From: an uncultured Alphaproteobacteria bacterium
GTDB taxonomy: Bacteria; Pseudomonadota; Alphaproteobacteria; Sphingomonadales; Sphingomonadaceae
Length of the DNA: 64,000 bases
NCBI GenBank assembly: GCA_903934325.1
Contig: CAIZNH010000039.1
Location: 124,001 to 188,000 of the forward strand
Reading direction: 5' to 3'
Part shown: positions 23,123 to 31,271 of the stretch, one piece after another
How positions within the stretch are numbered: position 1 is the stretch's first letter
Layout: every line of letters starts with the position of its first letter
Notes under the pieces: model-generated
The model's database searches: none
The model's input: only the letters and a program-made list of their open reading frames with translations
What the model was told of the DNA's origin: nothing
Position numbers and translations under genes: made by a program

Positions 23123-23164
23123 ACGAGGGTGCAAGGGAGGGGTTAATTGGACAGGAGACAGACC

Positions 23165-24451
23165 TTGGCAGACAAGCTGGCGAAGCTCGAACTGGGCGGC
23201 AAGACCTATGAGTATCCCGTGCTCGAAGGCAGCACCGGCCCCGATGTCATCGACATCCGCAAGCTCTACGCGCAGACGGGTGCCTTCACTTTCGACCCCG
23301 GCTTCACCTCGACCGCGAGCTGCGAAAGCGCGCTGACCTATATCGATGGTGACGAAGGGGTGCTGCTGCACCGCGGCTATCCGATCGGCCAGCTGGCCGA
23401 GGATTCGAGCTTCATGGAAGTGAGCTACCTGCTTCTGAACGGCGAACTGCCGAGCAAGACGGCGCTCGACGATTTCACCCACACCATCACCCGTCACACC
23501 ATGCTGCACGAGCAGCTGATGACCTTCTATCGCGGTTTCCGCCGCGACGCGCACCCGATGGCGATCATGTGCGGCGTGGTGGGCGCGCTGTCGGCCTTCT
23601 ATCACGACAGCACCGACATCTCCGATCCGCAGCAGCGCATGATTGCCTCGCACCGCCTGATCGCGAAGATGCCGACGATTGCGGCGATGGCCTACAAGTA
23701 TTCGGTCGGCCAGCCCTTCATCTATCCGGACAACTCGCTGAGCTACACCGGCAACTTCCTGCGCATGACCTTCGGCGTGCCGGCCGAGCCCTATGAGGTG
23801 ATCCCGGCGGTCGAACGGGCGATGGACCGCATCTTCATCCTCCACGCCGATCACGAGCAGAACGCCTCGACCTCGACCGTGCGTCTTGCCGGTTCCTCGG
23901 GCGCGAACCCGTTTGCCTGTATCGCGGCGGGCATCGCCTGTCTGTGGGGCCCGGCGCATGGCGGCGCGAACGAAGCCGCGCTCAACATGCTCAAGGAAAT
24001 CGGCACGCCCGACAAGATCCCGCACTATATCGAGCGGGCCAAGGACAAGAACGATCCGTTCCGCCTGATGGGCTTCGGCCACCGCGTGTACAAGAACTAC
24101 GATCCGCGCGCGACGGTGATGCAGAAGACCGTGCGCGAGGTGTTCGATGCGCTCAAGGTCAATGATCCGCTGTTCGAGACCGCACTGCGGCTCGAAGAAA
24201 TCGCGCTGAATGATCCCTATTTCATCGAGAAGAAGCTGTTCCCCAACGTCGACTTCTACTCGGGGATCATCCTCTCGGCGATCGGCTTCCCGACCACGAT
24301 GTTCACCGCGCTGTTTGCCCTCGCCCGCACCGTGGGCTGGGTAGCGCAGTGGAACGAGATGATCAGCGACCCCGGCCAGAAGATCGGGCGTCCGCGCCAG
24401 CTCTACACCGGCCCGACGCAGCGCGACTACGTGCCGCTCTCGGCACGGTAA
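23165..24451 (+). CDS. gltA: Citrate synthase
   Basis: A 428-residue type II (hexameric, Gram-negative) citrate synthase condensing acetyl-CoA and oxaloacetate. It carries [51 protein letters not shown] with catalytic His, [29 protein letters not shown] with the second active-site His, and VDFYSGI with the catalytic Asp. The start is assigned to TTG because AGGAG lies seven bases upstream and the sequence then reads (M)[11 protein letters not shown], as in relatives. Confidence 0.97.
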
Positions 24452-24667: not shown

Positions 24668-26086
24668 TCAGACTGCGAAAGCTGGCAGTTCCAGCGTGAA
24701 GAGCGCTCCGCCGCTCTCTGCGGAGCCGACCGAGAGTTCGCCCTCCATCGCCTCGGCCAGACGGCGCGAGATGTAGAGGCCGAGGCCGGAACCCTTGTCT
24801 TTGCCGCCGTCGCTGTCGCGACCGAGCCGTTCGAACTTGTCGAAGATGTGCTCGGCCTGTTCGGGCGTGATACCGGGGCCTTCATCCGCAACGCTCACGC
24901 AGACGCGCCCTTCACCTGCCGGCGCGGCGGTGATCGTCACCGTGCTGCCCGCAGGCGAATAGGCTATCGCATTGCCGATAAGGTTGATGAGGATCTGCAG
25001 CAGGCGGCGGAATTCGGCATTGGCAAGCGCCGCGCCCGGCTCCCCATGTGTCACGAGCCGGATCTCGCGGTTCTGCGCCCGCACGCCGAGAATGCCTGCC
25101 GCACGCGCCGCCGCATCGGCGAGATCGACCTTCTCGCGCGCGGTCGAAAAGCCCGGGGTCTCCGCCACTTCGAGATCGGCGAGGTCGCCGAGCATTGCGG
25201 CAAGGTGCTGCCCTGCGCTGGCGATGGTGCCGGCATAGTCGGAATATTCATCGCGCAAGGGCCCGGCGAGCCGCGCGCGGATGGTTTCGGCATTGGCGAT
25301 GATCCGCGCCACGGGCTGGCGCAGCAACGGCGCAAGCGCGCTACCGATCAGGCGCGTTGCGCTGGCCTCGCCTTCGGCCGCGGCAGGCTGATGCGCACCG
25401 GGGGCGAGCGGTTCGTCAGCGATCAGCAGGAGCTCGAAGCCCGCCGGGTTCTGCGGATCGGGGCCGAGCGGGATCAGCCGCACCCGCCATTCGCGCCGCG
25501 ATCCGGCAAAGCGGCACAGCGCCCCGTCGAGCAGCCGCCAGTGCAGCGGCTGGTGGTGGGCAATGCCCTGCAATTCGACCAGCTCGCTCCACCCCTGCCC
25601 GGCCGCCGCCATGCCCGCCGCCTGAAGCTCCATCGCATCGGGCGCGAGCGCGCTCAGCACCTGCAGGCGCTGGCGGGCATCGAGCCGCGCGCTGACTTCG
25701 GCTGCGGCGCGGTCGATCGCATCGAGCCTTTCGGCATAGGCGCGGCCCTCGGTTGCAGGCGGAAGGCTGCGCTGCCAATTCTCGACCAGCACCTCACACC
25801 CGGTCTTGCCGTCATCCTCGCCCGAACGCGCCGGGTGGATGCGGGCAAAGCCGGAGACCATCGCCTCGCCATCGAAGGCGGAGAATTCGCGCGCGATCTT
25901 CAGCCCCATGCGGCGGGTCTGACGCACCAGATCGAGCAGTTCGGGGATCGCCAGCGGCCCCGGCACTCGCCCGCCGCAGCGCGCCTGCAATTCGGCGAGC
26001 GGCTCGTCGGCATTGAGCAGCCAGTCGCGCGCATCGGTCACCCCGCGGGCGCCAAGCAGGGTATCGCGGCGATCCATCGTGTTCAT
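24668..26086 (-). CDS. Histidine-kinase-like protein lacking the phospho-acceptor histidine
   Basis: A 472-residue soluble protein with a weakly PAS-like region (about 140-230), a DHp-like helical pair (about 245-305) and an intact HATPase_c domain (about 355-470). The ATP-binding boxes are clear: N box ILINLIGNAIAYS (Asn372), G1 DEGPG (401-405), F box FDKFERLG and G2 GSGLGLYIS (432-440). The H-box, normally SHELRTPL, reads APLLRQPV at 252-259, with Pro253 where His belongs. It therefore probably binds ATP but cannot autophosphorylate there. No membrane segments are seen. The start overlaps the upstream gene's stop (ATGA). Confidence 0.78.
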   Translation of the reverse strand: MNTMDRRDTLLGARGVTDARDWLLNADEPLAELQARCGGRVPGPLAIPELLDLVRQTRRMGLKIAREFSAFDGEAMVSGFARIHPARSGEDDGKTGCEVLVENWQRSLPPATEGRAYAERLDAIDRAAAEVSARLDARQRLQVLSALAPDAMELQAAGMAAAGQGWSELVELQGIAHHQPLHWRLLDGALCRFAGSRREWRVRLIPLGPDPQNPAGFELLLIADEPLAPGAHQPAAAEGEASATRLIGSALAPLLRQPVARIIANAETIRARLAGPLRDEYSDYAGTIASAGQHLAAMLGDLADLEVAETPGFSTAREKVDLADAAARAAGILGVRAQNREIRLVTHGEPGAALANAEFRRLLQILINLIGNAIAYSPAGSTVTITAAPAGEGRVCVSVADEGPGITPEQAEHIFDKFERLGRDSDGGKDKGSGLGLYISRRLAEAMEGELSVGSAESGGALFTLELPAFAV

Positions 26087-27006
26087 GCCGTCAGGCCCAG
26101 CAACAGCCGTGCACGCTCGGGCGCAATGTCCTCCAGCCCCTGCGGTGCACGGGAAGCGGAATCGACCAGCGGGAAGATACGGGCGATATTCTCGGGCGAC
26201 ATTCCGGCACTGCGCAGCATCAGCGCGAGCCTTGCCCCCTGCCCTTCCTGACAGGCGAGCACGGCATCCTCGCGCTCCTCGCGGCCAAGCGCCGCCACCG
26301 CGCTGGCAAACAGCGTGAGGCCCGCATGATCGAGCGCCAGCGCCGCAATCGCGCCGCGCCGCATGGCCGAGACAAGCCGGGCCAGCAGACCGAGGCGGCT
26401 CGCGCCTTCATCATAGGTCTCGTGCAGCCGCCGCGCCGCGTCGCCCTGCCCCAGATGGCGCGCGGTGAGCGCGTGGAACAGTTCGGCCGGAAGCTCGGAG
26501 AGCGGTAGCTCCATCCGGCGCTGGCTCTGGATGAAGCGTGACTGTGCCGCGAGCGTGTTCATGGCAAGCTCTGCCACCAGCGGATCTTCGGCAGCGATCA
26601 GCTCCTGAAGCAGCGGGCTCAGCACCGGATCGAGTCCATGGTGCTGGTGGAGCCGCTCGGCCGTCAGGCTTTCGGCGGCCAGCGCATGGCAATGGGCGAG
26701 CAGCAGCGGATCGCCTGCGAGCGCATCGGCCAGCGCATCATGCGCGCGGCGGTCGGCATCGGCGGGCAGACGCACAGCCGGATCGCGTCCTGCGGCGGCG
26801 GCAAGCAGCTGCGCGGTAAGGTCGGACAGCATCCCGCGCACCCGCGCCAGCACCGCGTCGCTCACCAGCCTGTGCCCGTCGCTTGCCAGCATACGGCGCA
26901 GCACCGGAACGAGCGAGGCAAGCGCACGGGTCTCGCGCGCGAGTTCATCGCGCAAGGCAGCCTCGAGAGCTCCGCCGTCAGCAAGGTCCATGGTCTCGTC
27001 GCCCAT
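26083..27006 (-). CDS. All-helical protein, possibly DUF2336-like
   Basis: A 307-residue protein, rich in Ala and Leu, predicted almost entirely alpha-helical with HEAT-like repeating helices. It has no signal peptide or membrane segment. It is reminiscent of alphaproteobacterial DUF2336 proteins in composition and in sitting beside two-component genes, but no signature motif confirms this. Either the first ATG or the one five residues later (MDLADGG) may be the start. It is translationally coupled to the downstream histidine-kinase-like gene, so the two products probably act together. Confidence 0.6.
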   Translation of the reverse strand: MGDETMDLADGGALEAALRDELARETRALASLVPVLRRMLASDGHRLVSDAVLARVRGMLSDLTAQLLAAAAGRDPAVRLPADADRRAHDALADALAGDPLLLAHCHALAAESLTAERLHQHHGLDPVLSPLLQELIAAEDPLVAELAMNTLAAQSRFIQSQRRMELPLSELPAELFHALTARHLGQGDAARRLHETYDEGASRLGLLARLVSAMRRGAIAALALDHAGLTLFASAVAALGREEREDAVLACQEGQGARLALMLRSAGMSPENIARIFPLVDSASRAPQGLEDIAPERARLLLGLTA

Positions 27007-27041
27007 CCTGCCCGCATAGTGCAGGCTTGGTTAAATCCGCG

Positions 27042-28232
27042 TTAGCCCAGATCGCCGGTTTGCGGGAGCAGCAATCCGCCAGTGAAGAGCAGCGCAACGA
27101 GCGCGGTTGCCTCGGGCAAGAGGCCAAAGGCGGCAGCCGGTGCGAGGAGTGCGAGCAGCACGCTCCGGTCCGCCAGCGGCGCGAGCGGTGCGGGCGGCGA
27201 CGAAAGGCGCGCAAGGCCGATCAGCACCGCCCCGAGCAGTGCCAGCGGCACGAAGGTGGCCGGCGCAGACAGCGCCAGCACCAGCATGGCCGAAGCGGCG
27301 CAATCGACCGCAATCTGCGGCCACGCCCGCTTGCCCGGGCCTGCGCCCTCGCCCAGCAGTGCATGCTTCATCGCGGCCAGAGCGCCCGAAAAAGTTGCCG
27401 CAAAGACTCCCAAGGCGCCAAGCCCGAGCCCCACTGCCGATAGCCCGCCCACCGCCGCAGCAACGCCGCCTGCCAGCAGCAGCCCCGATCCGGCCAGCGC
27501 CATCAGCGGCCCCTGCGCCAGCCCGCGCGGAGACAACGCCCGCGCCGCAAGGCCTGCGAGGCTGGCCGAAGGCCGCCGCCAGTCGGCCTCGCCCGCAGCC
27601 CGCGTGATCAGCGCCTGTTCCTGCGCCGCCAACGCGCTCTCGTCGCTGGCGAGGAGCCATGAGCCGCCGGCAGCAACCTCGGCGGGCAGATCGCGGCATG
27701 GCGTGCCGGCCTGAAGCGCAAGCCGCAGCAGCAGCGAGATCGCGTCGGCATCGGGCGGGAAATCGGCCAGATGCTGCACCGGCGCGCCGCGCATCGCCAA
27801 AACCCCGCCCCAATGGCGCGCGGCATCGATGCGCTCGAAATCATCGGGATGGGCGGCGACCAGCGGGCTATCCGATAGCAGGCAGGCGACCAGGCGCGGC
27901 GGCGTGGCCTCGGCAAACAGACGCGCGGTCACGGCGGGATCGGGCAGCAACCCGTCGGCCAGGATCACCAGCTCGTCCTCGGCCCGCACCAGCGCCGGCA
28001 GGTGGAGGAAACCGCGCAGAGCCTGAAACGTGCCCCCCGCCCTTTCCACCGCCTGCTGCACCCGCAGGATTTCCGCATCGGGACTTTCGCAGAGGCACAG
28101 GATCCGCTCGCACCCGAGGCTGCACAGCAGATCGACCTGCCGCGCCAGCACCGATCGTCCCGCCAGGGGCAATACGGCACGCAAGGTGCCCGTTCCGGTT
28201 CGTCTGAGGGCCGCGATCAGGGCCGTGCGCAT
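27042..28232 (-). CDS. Nucleotidyltransferase-like domain fused to a membrane domain, function unknown
   Basis: A 396-residue protein. The first 130 residues resemble a sugar-nucleotidyltransferase fold: AVLPLAGRSVLARQVDLLCSLGCERILCL matches the usual 'PL-x-G-x-P-x-L-x-x-Q-x-x-L-L-x-x-G' pattern, and ELVILADGLL the metal-binding strand. The catalytic GGxGTR loop is missing. Residues about 220-395 contain six or so hydrophobic, Ala/Leu-rich segments. I do not recognise the family. It lies between the HPt-like gene and the helical/pseudokinase pair on the same strand, with a 35-base gap downstream. The Shine-Dalgarno GGGAGG is strong. Confidence 0.65.
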   Translation of the reverse strand: MRTALIAALRRTGTGTLRAVLPLAGRSVLARQVDLLCSLGCERILCLCESPDAEILRVQQAVERAGGTFQALRGFLHLPALVRAEDELVILADGLLPDPAVTARLFAEATPPRLVACLLSDSPLVAAHPDDFERIDAARHWGGVLAMRGAPVQHLADFPPDADAISLLLRLALQAGTPCRDLPAEVAAGGSWLLASDESALAAQEQALITRAAGEADWRRPSASLAGLAARALSPRGLAQGPLMALAGSGLLLAGGVAAAVGGLSAVGLGLGALGVFAATFSGALAAMKHALLGEGAGPGKRAWPQIAVDCAASAMLVLALSAPATFVPLALLGAVLIGLARLSSPPAPLAPLADRSVLLALLAPAAAFGLLPEATALVALLFTGGLLLPQTGDLG

Positions 28233-28239
28233 ATCCCGC

Positions 28240-28266
28240 CTCCCGCAAGGGGGTTTCCCTCGGGAG
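28240..28266 (-). promoter_or_regulatory. Hairpin overlapping the ribosome-binding site of the nucleotidyltransferase-like gene
   Basis: CTCCCG (28240-28245) and CGGGAG (28261-28266) are perfectly complementary with a 15-base loop. On the minus-strand mRNA the CGGGAG copy includes the GGAG Shine-Dalgarno just before the ATG at 28232. Folding would partly hide the ribosome-binding site. The rest of the 113-base spacer to the HPt-like gene shows nothing definite. Confidence 0.3.
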
Positions 28267-28345
28267 AATTGCCGCTTTCACCGGCGAGGTTCAAGCCATG
28301 CCTGCGCGGCTGTGCCCGAAATCTGTCTGCGGAAGTGTTAGGCGC

Positions 28346-28657
28346 TCAGCGCTTCATCGAGCGGTTGAAGCGCGCCAGCACCGCTTCGATCTCGCGGATC
28401 ACGAAGGGCTCACCGGGCGCGGAATTGAGCGCGTGTTCGGCTGCAGCCTGCAATTCATCGGCATGGAAGCTGGCGGCCAGACCCTTGAGGCGCATCGCGG
28501 CCACGTTCCAGTTGCCATCGCAACGCGCCCGCTTGAGCAGATCGAGCTGCCGCGCAGCACTGTCGAGGAAGGCCCCGCGCAGCTCGCGCATCAGCGCGGC
28601 GTTTTCGCCGGCTGCTGCCGCAAGGGTCGCATCAAGAGCACCATTATCATAGGCCAT
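28346..28657 (-). CDS. HPt-like four-helix protein lacking the phospho-histidine
   Basis: A 103-residue helical protein with the HPt layout. The key helix reads NVAAMRLKGLAASFHADEL (51-69), which aligns with the HPt consensus AHxLKGxAxxxGAxxL. The L-K-G core is kept, but the phospho-accepting His is replaced by Met55. His65 lies elsewhere on the helix and is not at the expected position. The protein may bind a response regulator or kinase without relaying phosphate. It is divergent from the large coiled-coil gene by 58 bases, which suggests shared regulation. Confidence 0.7.
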   Translation of the reverse strand: MAYDNGALDATLAAAAGENAALMRELRGAFLDSAARQLDLLKRARCDGNWNVAAMRLKGLAASFHADELQAAAEHALNSAPGEPFVIREIEAVLARFNRSMKR

Positions 28658-28715
28658 GATGCCCGATTACAGGCGATTAGGTTAAAGCGGGGTTTATCCC
28701 GAGTCCGCCTGTGAT

Positions 28716-31271
28716 ATGATGCCAGCCATGACAGGACGGCACCAGATACGCGCCTTGGGGCGCAAGGGCGGCGCGGACGACGCTGGAGATGCGGCAATTC
28801 CCGAGGGTGAGGCGGCGCCCGAGAGCGGCGAGATACTGCTCGAGGAAAGCTGGGAAGAGCCGTCCGCGGATACCGCTCCCTCCACCAGAGGCGCATGGAT
28901 CGCCCCTGCTCTCGCGCTGCTGGCCATGGCCGGATGGACCGGGTTCTTCGGCTGGACGGTGAGCGCCGAGGCGCTGGCGGGTGCCGCTCCAGGGACATGG
29001 GCGGGCTGGATCGTCTCGTGGTCGGTGCCGATGGGCCTGATCGGCATTCTCTGGCTGCTGGCAATGCGCTCCTCGCGCGCCGAGGCGAGCCGCTTTGCCG
29101 CCAGCGCCGCGCTGCTGAGCCGGGAAAGTGCCGAGCTCGAGGCACGGCTCAAGGTGGTCAACCGCGAGCTCAGCCTTGCGCGGGAATTCCTCGCCGCCGA
29201 AGCCCGCGACCTCGAAGCCCTCGGCCGGATCGCGGCGGAGCGCATCTCCACCCATGCCGCCGAATTGCAGGCGCTGGTCGCCACCAATGGCGCGCAGGTC
29301 GAAGCCATCGGCTCGGCGAGCGAAACCGCGCTCGGCAATATGAACCGGTTGCGCGATGATCTTCCCGTGATCGCCAATGCCGCCCGCGATGTGACCAACC
29401 AGATCGGCAATGCCGGTCGCCATGCGCAGGAACAGCTCGATCAGCTGACCATCGGGTTCGAGCGCATCGGCACCATCGGCACCGCCAGCGAAGCGCAGGT
29501 TCAGGGCCTCAGCGCCACGGTGGGCGCGACACTGACCGGGTTCGAAGCGCAGGTTGCCCGGATCGAGGCGCTGGTGAGCGACCGCTTCACCCGCCTGCAG
29601 GGCGAGACCGCCGCCTATCGCGAGCGCGTGGAAGCGCTGGAAGTCGCCGCGCTCGATGCCCTGCGCGCCCAGACCGCGCAGCTCGAAACCGATATCACCG
29701 CCGCCGCAGAAAGGCTGCGCGAAGCCGAAGAGGCCGCCCGCGCGGGTTTGCGCGGAGAGATGGAAGCGCTCGATGCCGAAGCCGCCGCCCGTCTCAAGGC
29801 GGTAGAAGCGGCCGAGGCCAGCGCGCTTGCCACGGCCCGCAGCCGGATTGCCGCGATCACCGAGGAAGCCGACACCATCGAGGCGCGTCTGGCGGCCCGC
29901 GACCTCCAGTTTGCCGAGGCTGTCGAGCAGCGCCAGTCGGCCTTCGAAACGCGCGAGGCTCAGGCCAGCGAAGTCCTCGCCCAGCGGCTCACCGCGCTCG
30001 ACGATGCCCTCGCCCAGCGGCGCGAGGCGCAGCTCGCCGACACCGCGAGGCTGGTGGCACATGGCGAGGAAATCACCGCGCAGCTCGATACCTTCGGCGC
30101 ACTGCTGGCCGAGATCACCGCCAGCGGCCATGCCGCACGCAGCAGCCTGTCTGACGGCTTTGACGCGCTCGGCCAGACGCTTGCCGCCAAGCGCACCGCC
30201 CTCGCCGAGACCGAGGCGCGGCTTGCGCAGCTGACCGAAAGCGGGGTGCGCCTGCTCGAAATCATCCAGTCAGGCGCGCGCACGAGCCGCGAGGAATTGC
30301 AGCAGGCCATCACTTCCGCAAGCGAGACGCTGGCGGGCGTGGAAGGCCGCGCGGGCGATGTGCGCCAGCTGATGCTGGCCTCGGGCGAGAGCGGCAAGGA
30401 CCTCTCGGCCTATCTCATCATGACCCGCGAGGAGATCGCTGCGGCCGACGCCGCGATTGCCGGCTTTGGCGCGAAACTCGCCGAGCAGTCGGACGAGGCG
30501 CTCGCCAGGCTTCAGGGCCTGCGTGGCGGTTTTGCGCGATTGAACGAAGAAAGCGGCACGCTGGCGGGCGAGACGCAGGAGCAATTGCGCACGGCGCTTG
30601 CCACGCTTGAGGAAGCCATCGCCAAAGCCTTTGCCACGCTCGATGAAGGCGCGCGCGAGAAGGCGGCGGCCCTCGCCGAAAGCCTCGGCGGGGAAGCGGT
30701 GCAGGCACTCGAACGCACGATGCGCAACGAGACCGCCGCTTCGGTCGGCAAGATCGAAGCCGCTGCCGCCCATGCCTCGGGCGTCGGACGCGAGGTGGTG
30801 GTGCAGCTGCGCGACCAACTGTTGAAGGTGAACGAGCTTACCGGCAATCTCGAACAGAGGGTCACTCGCGCCCGCGAACTGGCCGAGGAGCAGGTCAACA
30901 ACGACTTCGCGCGGCGCATGGCGCTGATCACCGACAGTCTCAATTCGGCCGCCATCGACATCAGCGGCGCGCTTTCAAGCGAAGTCGCAGACACCGCATG
31001 GGACGCCTATCTCAAGGGCGATCGCGGGATCTTCACCCGCCGCGCCGTCCGCCTGATCGACAATGGCGGCGCGCGCGACATTGCCGAGCTCTACCAGCGC
31101 GACGACGCCTTCAAGGCCAATGTCAGCCGCTACATCCACGATTTCGAAGCGATGCTGCGCGCGACCCTCTCGACCCGCGATGGCCACGTGCTGAGCGTGA
31201 CCATGCTGGGTTCGGACATGGGCAAGCTCTATGTCGTGCTCGCCCAAGCGATCCAGCGCCTGCGCAACTAA
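28716..31271 (+). CDS. Large membrane-anchored coiled-coil protein (TipN-like)
   Basis: An 851-residue protein. A 55-residue acidic N-terminus precedes two membrane segments (about 60-81 and 94-117). These are followed by over 600 residues of Ala/Glu/Arg-rich coiled coil (about 120-740). The last 110 residues form a distinct, less repetitive domain with DTAWDAYLKGDRGIFTRRAV, YIHDFEAMLR and SDMGKLYVVLAQAI. Length and architecture match TipN, the Caulobacter birth-scar polarity protein (two N-terminal membrane segments and a long coiled coil). I infer a scaffold or polarity role, not proven. Three in-frame ATGs lie within the first five codons; the first is used. The stop directly abuts the DUF1467 stop. 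Confidence 0.72.
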   Translation: MMPAMTGRHQIRALGRKGGADDAGDAAIPEGEAAPESGEILLEESWEEPSADTAPSTRGAWIAPALALLAMAGWTGFFGWTVSAEALAGAAPGTWAGWIVSWSVPMGLIGILWLLAMRSSRAEASRFAASAALLSRESAELEARLKVVNRELSLAREFLAAEARDLEALGRIAAERISTHAAELQALVATNGAQVEAIGSASETALGNMNRLRDDLPVIANAARDVTNQIGNAGRHAQEQLDQLTIGFERIGTIGTASEAQVQGLSATVGATLTGFEAQVARIEALVSDRFTRLQGETAAYRERVEALEVAALDALRAQTAQLETDITAAAERLREAEEAARAGLRGEMEALDAEAAARLKAVEAAEASALATARSRIAAITEEADTIEARLAARDLQFAEAVEQRQSAFETREAQASEVLAQRLTALDDALAQRREAQLADTARLVAHGEEITAQLDTFGALLAEITASGHAARSSLSDGFDALGQTLAAKRTALAETEARLAQLTESGVRLLEIIQSGARTSREELQQAITSASETLAGVEGRAGDVRQLMLASGESGKDLSAYLIMTREEIAAADAAIAGFGAKLAEQSDEALARLQGLRGGFARLNEESGTLAGETQEQLRTALATLEEAIAKAFATLDEGAREKAAALAESLGGEAVQALERTMRNETAASVGKIEAAAAHASGVGREVVVQLRDQLLKVNELTGNLEQRVTRARELAEEQVNNDFARRMALITDSLNSAAIDISGALSSEVADTAWDAYLKGDRGIFTRRAVRLIDNGGARDIAELYQRDDAFKANVSRYIHDFEAMLRATLSTRDGHVLSVTMLGSDMGKLYVVLAQAIQRLRN

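Follow-up and report, generated by a model that had tools for sequence, protein, structure and literature searches.

Both pseudo-kinase receptors and polar scaffolds have been described before. According to PMC4211667, DivL acts by binding DivK~P, without any kinase activity; TipN is a polar scaffold of Caulobacter (PMC7083601, PMC7403779 and PMC10127582). Here, we identify a module of five neighboring genes in a 64,000-nucleotide stretch of an uncultured alphaproteobacterium of the family Sphingomonadaceae (contig CAIZNH010000039.1, positions 124,001 to 188,000; hereafter, the window). The genes encode a pseudo-histidine kinase (HK), an all-helical, divergent DUF2336 protein (HEL), a membrane protein of transferase descent (NTR), an HPt-like protein (HPT) and a coiled-coil scaffold that we label TIPN. 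No description of this module, of a TipN-linked HPt or of DUF2336 function was found in the literature searched, which left most subscription papers outside. The ancestry of the module is established; its function we infer. The model that we prefer, tentatively and at somewhat less than even chances, is that the module is a binding-only remnant of a phosphorelay that is attached to a membrane scaffold and works in a DivL-like manner.

Several observations support HK (24668..26086, minus strand, 472 aa) as a pseudo-histidine kinase with an intact ATP site. First, in Pfam it matches HATPase_c with 97.5 bits and HisKA with 25.1 bits (cut-off, 26.9), and hydropathy predicts it to be soluble. Second, the ATP-binding N, G1 and G2 residues of histidine kinases are present: N368, N372, D401, G403, G432 and G434 are identical in 39 of 39 HKs and G405 in 38 of 39. 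Third, the phospho-acceptor His of the DHp domain is absent and replaced by Pro253 (codon 25328-25330). At 71 named loci, this position is Pro in 69, Ser in one and a gap in one; in 37 further genomes, it is Pro in 22, His in one (L067) and one of ten other residues in 14, with the HK of L054, which has Arg, kept outside this count. Altogether, one of 108 aligned HK relatives carries the acceptor His. The surrounding sequence is kept, the mean share of the commonest residue being 0.67 and 0.70 in the two DHp helices and 0.70 in the ATP domain, compared to 0.45 in the N-terminal part.

HK is similar to DivL in having kinase-type DHp and ATP domains, a non-phosphorylatable acceptor residue and an ancestry among His-bearing kinases (PMC4211667). 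However, DivL has Tyr at the acceptor position and HK has Pro; also unlike DivL, HK is soluble by hydropathy and has DUF2336 and scaffold neighbors. The original prediction had proposed that the system acts on the CckA/ChpT-type relay, which would make the pseudo-kinase a second DivL in the CckA/ChpT/CtrA pathway. In favor of this idea, a search with the HK profile finds the DivL structure 4q20 (E-value 1.7e-29), and DivJ is the second-best NCBIfam model for HK, though far under its cut-off. However, 4q20 is outscored by twelve further solved sequences, and a separate protein with the DivL signature SYELRTP or SYEFRTP is present in each of the four genomes checked, including that of the window, which has SYEFRTP (in G000 and G033, the match runs across a TGA). 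Moreover, TTAA-N7-TTAA, which we take to be the CtrA box, occurs at 3 sites in the genome versus 7 for the reversed control. We regard action on the CckA/ChpT relay as very doubtful and as unsupported by the present results; the separate DivL-type genes and the absence of any receiver gene from the module both speak against what had been proposed. An orthology of HK to DivL, which is expected once per genome, was rejected based on Pro instead of Tyr at the acceptor and the separate SYEFRTP protein in the same genome.

HPT (28346..28657, minus strand, 103 aa) belongs to the HPt family by similarity and lacks the phosphorylatable His, with Met55 (codon 28493-28495) at this position. The window protein reaches 17.1 bits with the Pfam Hpt model (cut-off, 24.6), and 14 of 27 HPT family members match this model at 0.1; in a sequence search of the PDB, the best match (4.6e-4) covered a brief segment of a designed-type chain that is unrelated. 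The His position is occupied by Met in 54, Leu in 11, Gln in six, Glu in three and Asp in one of 75 named loci, and in 26 further genomes by Leu in eight, Gln in six, Met in five, Trp in three, and Ala, Glu, Gly and His (L060) in one each. Hence, one of 101 HPT relatives has the acceptor His. The claims of the original prediction that HK is an ATP-binding pseudo-kinase, that HPT is HPt-like without its His, and that both acceptors were lost while nearby motifs were kept are borne out by these data. The conservation of the Pro and Met substitutions holds for the majority of named loci; at the remaining named loci, the two positions carry other residues or a gap. Among close relatives, the histidines are not restored; they are present in more distant family genomes and outside the family.

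At the position ten residues downstream of the HPT acceptor (residue 65 in the window), 83 of 101 relatives share a His, and the single HPt with the ordinary acceptor His has Gly. Based on this pattern, His65 could possibly be a substitute acceptor or a binding residue. This observation, together with the fully kept ATP site of HK, raises the possibility that the chemistry has moved, i.e., that phosphotransfer proceeds via other residues such as this His or that the ATP site of HK serves to phosphorylate another side chain or protein. However, no comparable new acceptor residue emerged in HK, in which Pro is fixed in most of the clade, and we consider this scenario unlikely.

TIPN (28716..31271, plus strand) encodes an 851-residue protein with one clear membrane segment by hydropathy (residues 99-117) and a conserved C-terminal domain, in agreement with the membrane-anchored coiled coil of this length that had been predicted. 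Its matches in the PDB are generic coiled coils. Caulobacter TipN is a large protein with an N-terminal membrane anchor and a long coiled coil, and TIPN is tentatively likened to it by this layout. Homologues of TIPN, matching mostly in the C-terminal part, are present in 47 of 240 genomes of the class, 44 of them outside the family.

The pairing of an HPt gene with the scaffold gene also occurs outside the family. An HPt gene lies divergently within ∼1.2 kb of TIPN at 11 of 20 loci from other families of the order, and at eight of 39 loci from other orders. These HPts have the same place and direction as HPT and compare to it at 96.3% in a profile comparison, but they retain His in 19 of 19 cases outside the family. 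Within the family, His-bearing HPts are found beside TIPN at L305, L311, L312 and L315, the one of L311 appearing frame-shifted after its His motif. A profile of eight HPts from the order was also run on 21 genomes, 15 of which are from other orders. Ten of these 15 have a match below 1e-15, a fraction that is not free of bias because eight of the 15 were chosen for having the pair themselves or in another genome of their genus. Seven of the ten matches are near TIPN, the match in G062 is ∼10-12 kb away, and those in G140 and G244 are elsewhere; in nine of the ten genomes, the HPt is the sole profile match. The HPt-scaffold pairing is older than the five-gene module, a point that the original prediction missed. 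In addition, a DUF2336-like gene directly follows TIPN at seven of the 20 loci from other families of the order.

HEL (26083..27006, minus strand, 307 aa) overlaps the start of HK with its stop codon (ATGA) and, counting by genome with split contigs merged, never occurs without HK (36 of 36 genomes). HEL of the window has no Pfam match, and DUF2336 is not among the Pfam matches of 18 near relatives, a sample that does not include the HEL found at L046. However, positional orthologues match DUF2336 (PF10098) with E-values of 4e-63 (L068), 7e-30 (L067) and 4e-25 (L053), and HEL and DUF2336 compare at 96.6% in a profile comparison. We class the window protein as a DUF2336 protein that is too divergent for a Pfam match; that HEL is a protein without kin was ruled out on these grounds. 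The AlphaFold2 model is all-helical (pLDDT 94.6, pTM 0.91). Comparing this model with the PDB in Foldseek gave nothing below an E-value of 1 (best, 1.0), and a sequence search of the PDB found no solved relative. The original description of HEL as helical agrees with this model but missed its membership of DUF2336.

The HK-DUF2336 pair, too, has His-bearing counterparts. Among 30 HK loci of the class, for each of which a 1.5-kb flank was available, a DUF2336 gene adjoins a His-bearing HK at five (L250, L251, L252, L254 and L259). At L250, L252 and L259, which are from other alphaproteobacteria, DUF2336 genes flank this HK on both sides. Within the family, a His-bearing HK lies beside DUF2336 in G052 (L304), G007 (L311), G040 (L069), G056 (L322) and G012 (L323). 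G012 shares the gene order of the window, TIPN-NTR-DUF2336-HK, minus HPT; in G052 and G007, TIPN and NTR are on the same stretch as the His-bearing HK, and in G040 and G056, HK-DUF2336 is on a different contig from TIPN. G052 also has two genes between NTR and TIPN (L304:12906-14043, minus strand): one encodes a receiver domain, and the other, in which an HPt-like AHDLKG motif was read by eye, is of a different type from HPT of the window.

In a quick-search HK tree with SH-aLRT support only, the 39 module HKs, including that of the window, and one misplaced fragment form one clade (support 100), which the His-bearing HKs of G052, G007 and G040 join next (support 99); the HKs of G012 and G056 were not included. 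Plain parsimony on this tree counts five changes at the acceptor and not one. However, fragments L260 and L268 are gapped at the acceptor, fragment L264, whose branch is very long, is placed within the module HKs, and L067 is a nested His; with these four set aside, we read the tree as fitting a single loss of His in HK. We suggest that the site subsequently drifted in the deeper branches and that Pro became fixed in most of the window's clade. Because His is present in the HKs of five family genomes and in all 19 HPts near the scaffold outside the family, the loss of His in HK and HPT is the derived state. Neighboring HPt and scaffold genes as well as neighboring His-bearing HK and DUF2336 genes occur well outside the family. 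Within the family, the two pairs were joined with the transferase-derived membrane protein. Subsequently, in the window's lineage, HK and HPT lost the acceptor His and NTR its CDP-alcohol motif, with all five genes remaining under purifying selection.

NTR (27042..28232, minus strand, 396 aa) was originally described as a nucleotidyltransferase-like membrane protein. A Pfam match to NTP_transf_3 near the cut-off (26.6 bits; cut-off, 27) and hydrophobic segments from residue 243 onward agree with that description, which overlooked a second descent: the NTR of L068 matches CDP-OH_P_transf at 3e-10, and among PDB entries the NTR profile best matches the bifunctional inositol-phosphate cytidylyltransferase/CDP-inositol transferase 4mnd (E-value 6e-4). 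NTR thus descends from a CDP-alcohol-type transferase. CDP-alcohol phosphotransferases have the motif D-x2-DG-x2-AR. In contrast to enzymes of the 4mnd type, NTR of the window lacks this catalytic motif, which is gone in 45 of 48 NTRs and recognizable in three (L068, L307 and L310).

The three motif-bearing NTRs lie beside genes for an inositol-1-phosphate synthase and a MobA-like transferase. In the module of G017 (L068:5645-11270), these two genes are accompanied by two CDP-alcohol-type genes and a further gene that is presumably Wzi-like, and similar gene sets are found inside the modules of G038 and G003. From its gene content, this set could be a bacterial inositol-lipid locus. An inositol-phosphate synthase gene is present in 19 of 59 family genomes, including that of the window, where it is on another contig. 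Together with the match to 4mnd, the gene neighbors of the motif-bearing NTRs suggest an alternative in which the row has a regulatory or supporting role in an inositol-phosphate lipid or capsule pathway, with no more than an incidental link to polarity. The loss of the CDP-alcohol motif from nearly all NTRs argues against this alternative, which we find improbable even though the window's genome carries the synthase gene.

All five open reading frames were confirmed at the positions originally predicted. Going by the nearest named loci, the genome resembles Porphyrobacter/Erythrobacter. HPT, NTR, HEL and HK form a leftward row with gaps of 113 bp and 35 bp followed by the ATGA overlap, and TIPN runs rightward 58 bp from HPT. 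The block is flanked by gltX-gltA on one side and DUF1467-rnj-coaX-birA-nuoN on the other, and the same gene order between gltX-gltA and DUF1467-rnj is found in most of 40 family regions compared. At 80 named scaffold loci, HK is present in 71, and HEL, NTR and HPT in 75 each; many of the misses are on short contigs, and several HK misses are contig ends. Among close relatives, the genes are not scattered, and the neighborhood that was to be checked for conservation is indeed conserved; the recurring gene order and these counts rule out a chance neighborhood. More broadly, 54 of 59 family genomes (58 genera) have a match to HK at 1e-20, paralogues included. In the 52 family genomes with TIPN, HK is present in 40, HEL in 36, NTR in 47 and HPT in 31 when counted by genome, and in 37, 33, 46 and 31, respectively, before contigs were merged for G012, G040 and G056, in which the module is split over two contigs. 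HPT is present in 30 of the 40 genomes with HK and in one of the 12 without; these co-occurrence counts are raw and uncorrected for shared ancestry. The module lies directly behind the citrate synthase gene gltA (23147-24451, plus strand). According to PMC7083601, citrate synthase emerged from a cell-cycle screen in a Caulobacter tipN cpdR double mutant; the adjacency and this link are probably a coincidence.

Compared to five close relatives, the ratios of nonsynonymous to synonymous differences (pN/pS) are 0.11-0.20 for HPT, 0.27-0.30 for HK, 0.29-0.35 for TIPN, 0.40-0.47 for HEL and 0.39-0.51 for NTR; the corresponding values are 0.07-0.19 for gltA, rnj and coaX and 0.19-0.46 for DUF1467, with several underlying synonymous distances (dS) near or above 1. 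All five genes are under purifying selection. The lost acceptors, the kept ATP site and this constraint agree with the proposal that the proteins are selected for something other than ordinary phosphotransfer.

Several observations weigh against our preferred model of one binding-only complex. The HK of L067 and the HPT of L060 carry His, and the module has no receiver gene. The module evolves faster than its housekeeping neighbors gltA, rnj and coaX, yet is constrained. Some relatives have lost HEL, others NTR or HPT, NTR being missing within long stretches at L168, L172 and L173 and HPT at L193, L195 and L199, and 10 of the 52 family genomes retain TIPN and NTR without HK. Because of these individual losses and the ten genomes without HK, the five genes are not one indivisible machine. 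The same ten genomes, and the pN/pS values of HEL and NTR, which are the highest of the five, could also mean that only the scaffold-NTR pair matters and that HK, HEL and HPT are decaying passengers. However, pN/pS is lower for HPT than for any other gene of the five and is 0.27-0.30 for HK, and HK is kept at most named loci, with several misses explained by contig ends. We consider passengers of this kind quite unlikely.

The 58-bp gap between HPT and TIPN contains a GGTTAA-N4-GGGTTTA element (28680..28696, plus strand) that is kept across the window's clade. TTAA-like halves are present at 69 of 76 named loci and the remaining seven have TTTC; at ≤1 mismatch, the element is found at 69 of 76 loci compared to 2-3% of shuffled or random windows. 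It was not found at any of 18 further family loci that have no close module, of 20 loci of the order's other families or of 38 loci of other orders, the sole match in the last group, L101, being a family member. The exact form has a single occurrence in the genome, TTAA-N7-TTAA is less frequent than its reversed control and the element is confined to the window's clade; for these reasons, we do not call it a CtrA box, and CtrA control of the gap was rejected. A promoter scan found 0 promoters; the element is probably part of a divergent promoter.

Based on these considerations, we suggest how a binding-only module might work. The scaffold would gather the module proteins at a membrane site, probably the cell pole. 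The HK dimer would still bind ATP and, through its DHp face, hold a response regulator that it does not phosphorylate, in the way that DivL binds DivK~P. HEL may be an obligate adaptor of HK, the His-less HPT a docking or competing element that stands between the scaffold and receiver domains, and NTR the partner in the membrane. The module would thereby set the place at which the response regulator is available, or decide whether it is available at all. A more far-reaching version, to which we give distinctly less credence and which is doubtful at present, is that three dead enzymes, i.e., a kinase, an HPt and a lipid-head-group transferase, have become a polar scaffold module, recording an evolutionary switch by which a scaffold-linked phosphorelay that was active turned into a signaling complex with a purely structural role. 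Because chemistry-intact forms survive in the same family, such a switch could be studied step by step.

DivL is a well-studied example of a histidine kinase turned receptor. The module described here is apparently a second, separate case that is linked to a pole-type scaffold. Because His-bearing relatives are present in related genera, the partner genes lie in one block and the scaffold is linked to them, the conversion of a phosphorelay into a binding-only complex becomes directly testable. The module also provides a first context for DUF2336 and reveals an HPt that is linked to a scaffold gene across several alphaproteobacterial orders. The evolutionary facts are solid and unexpected.

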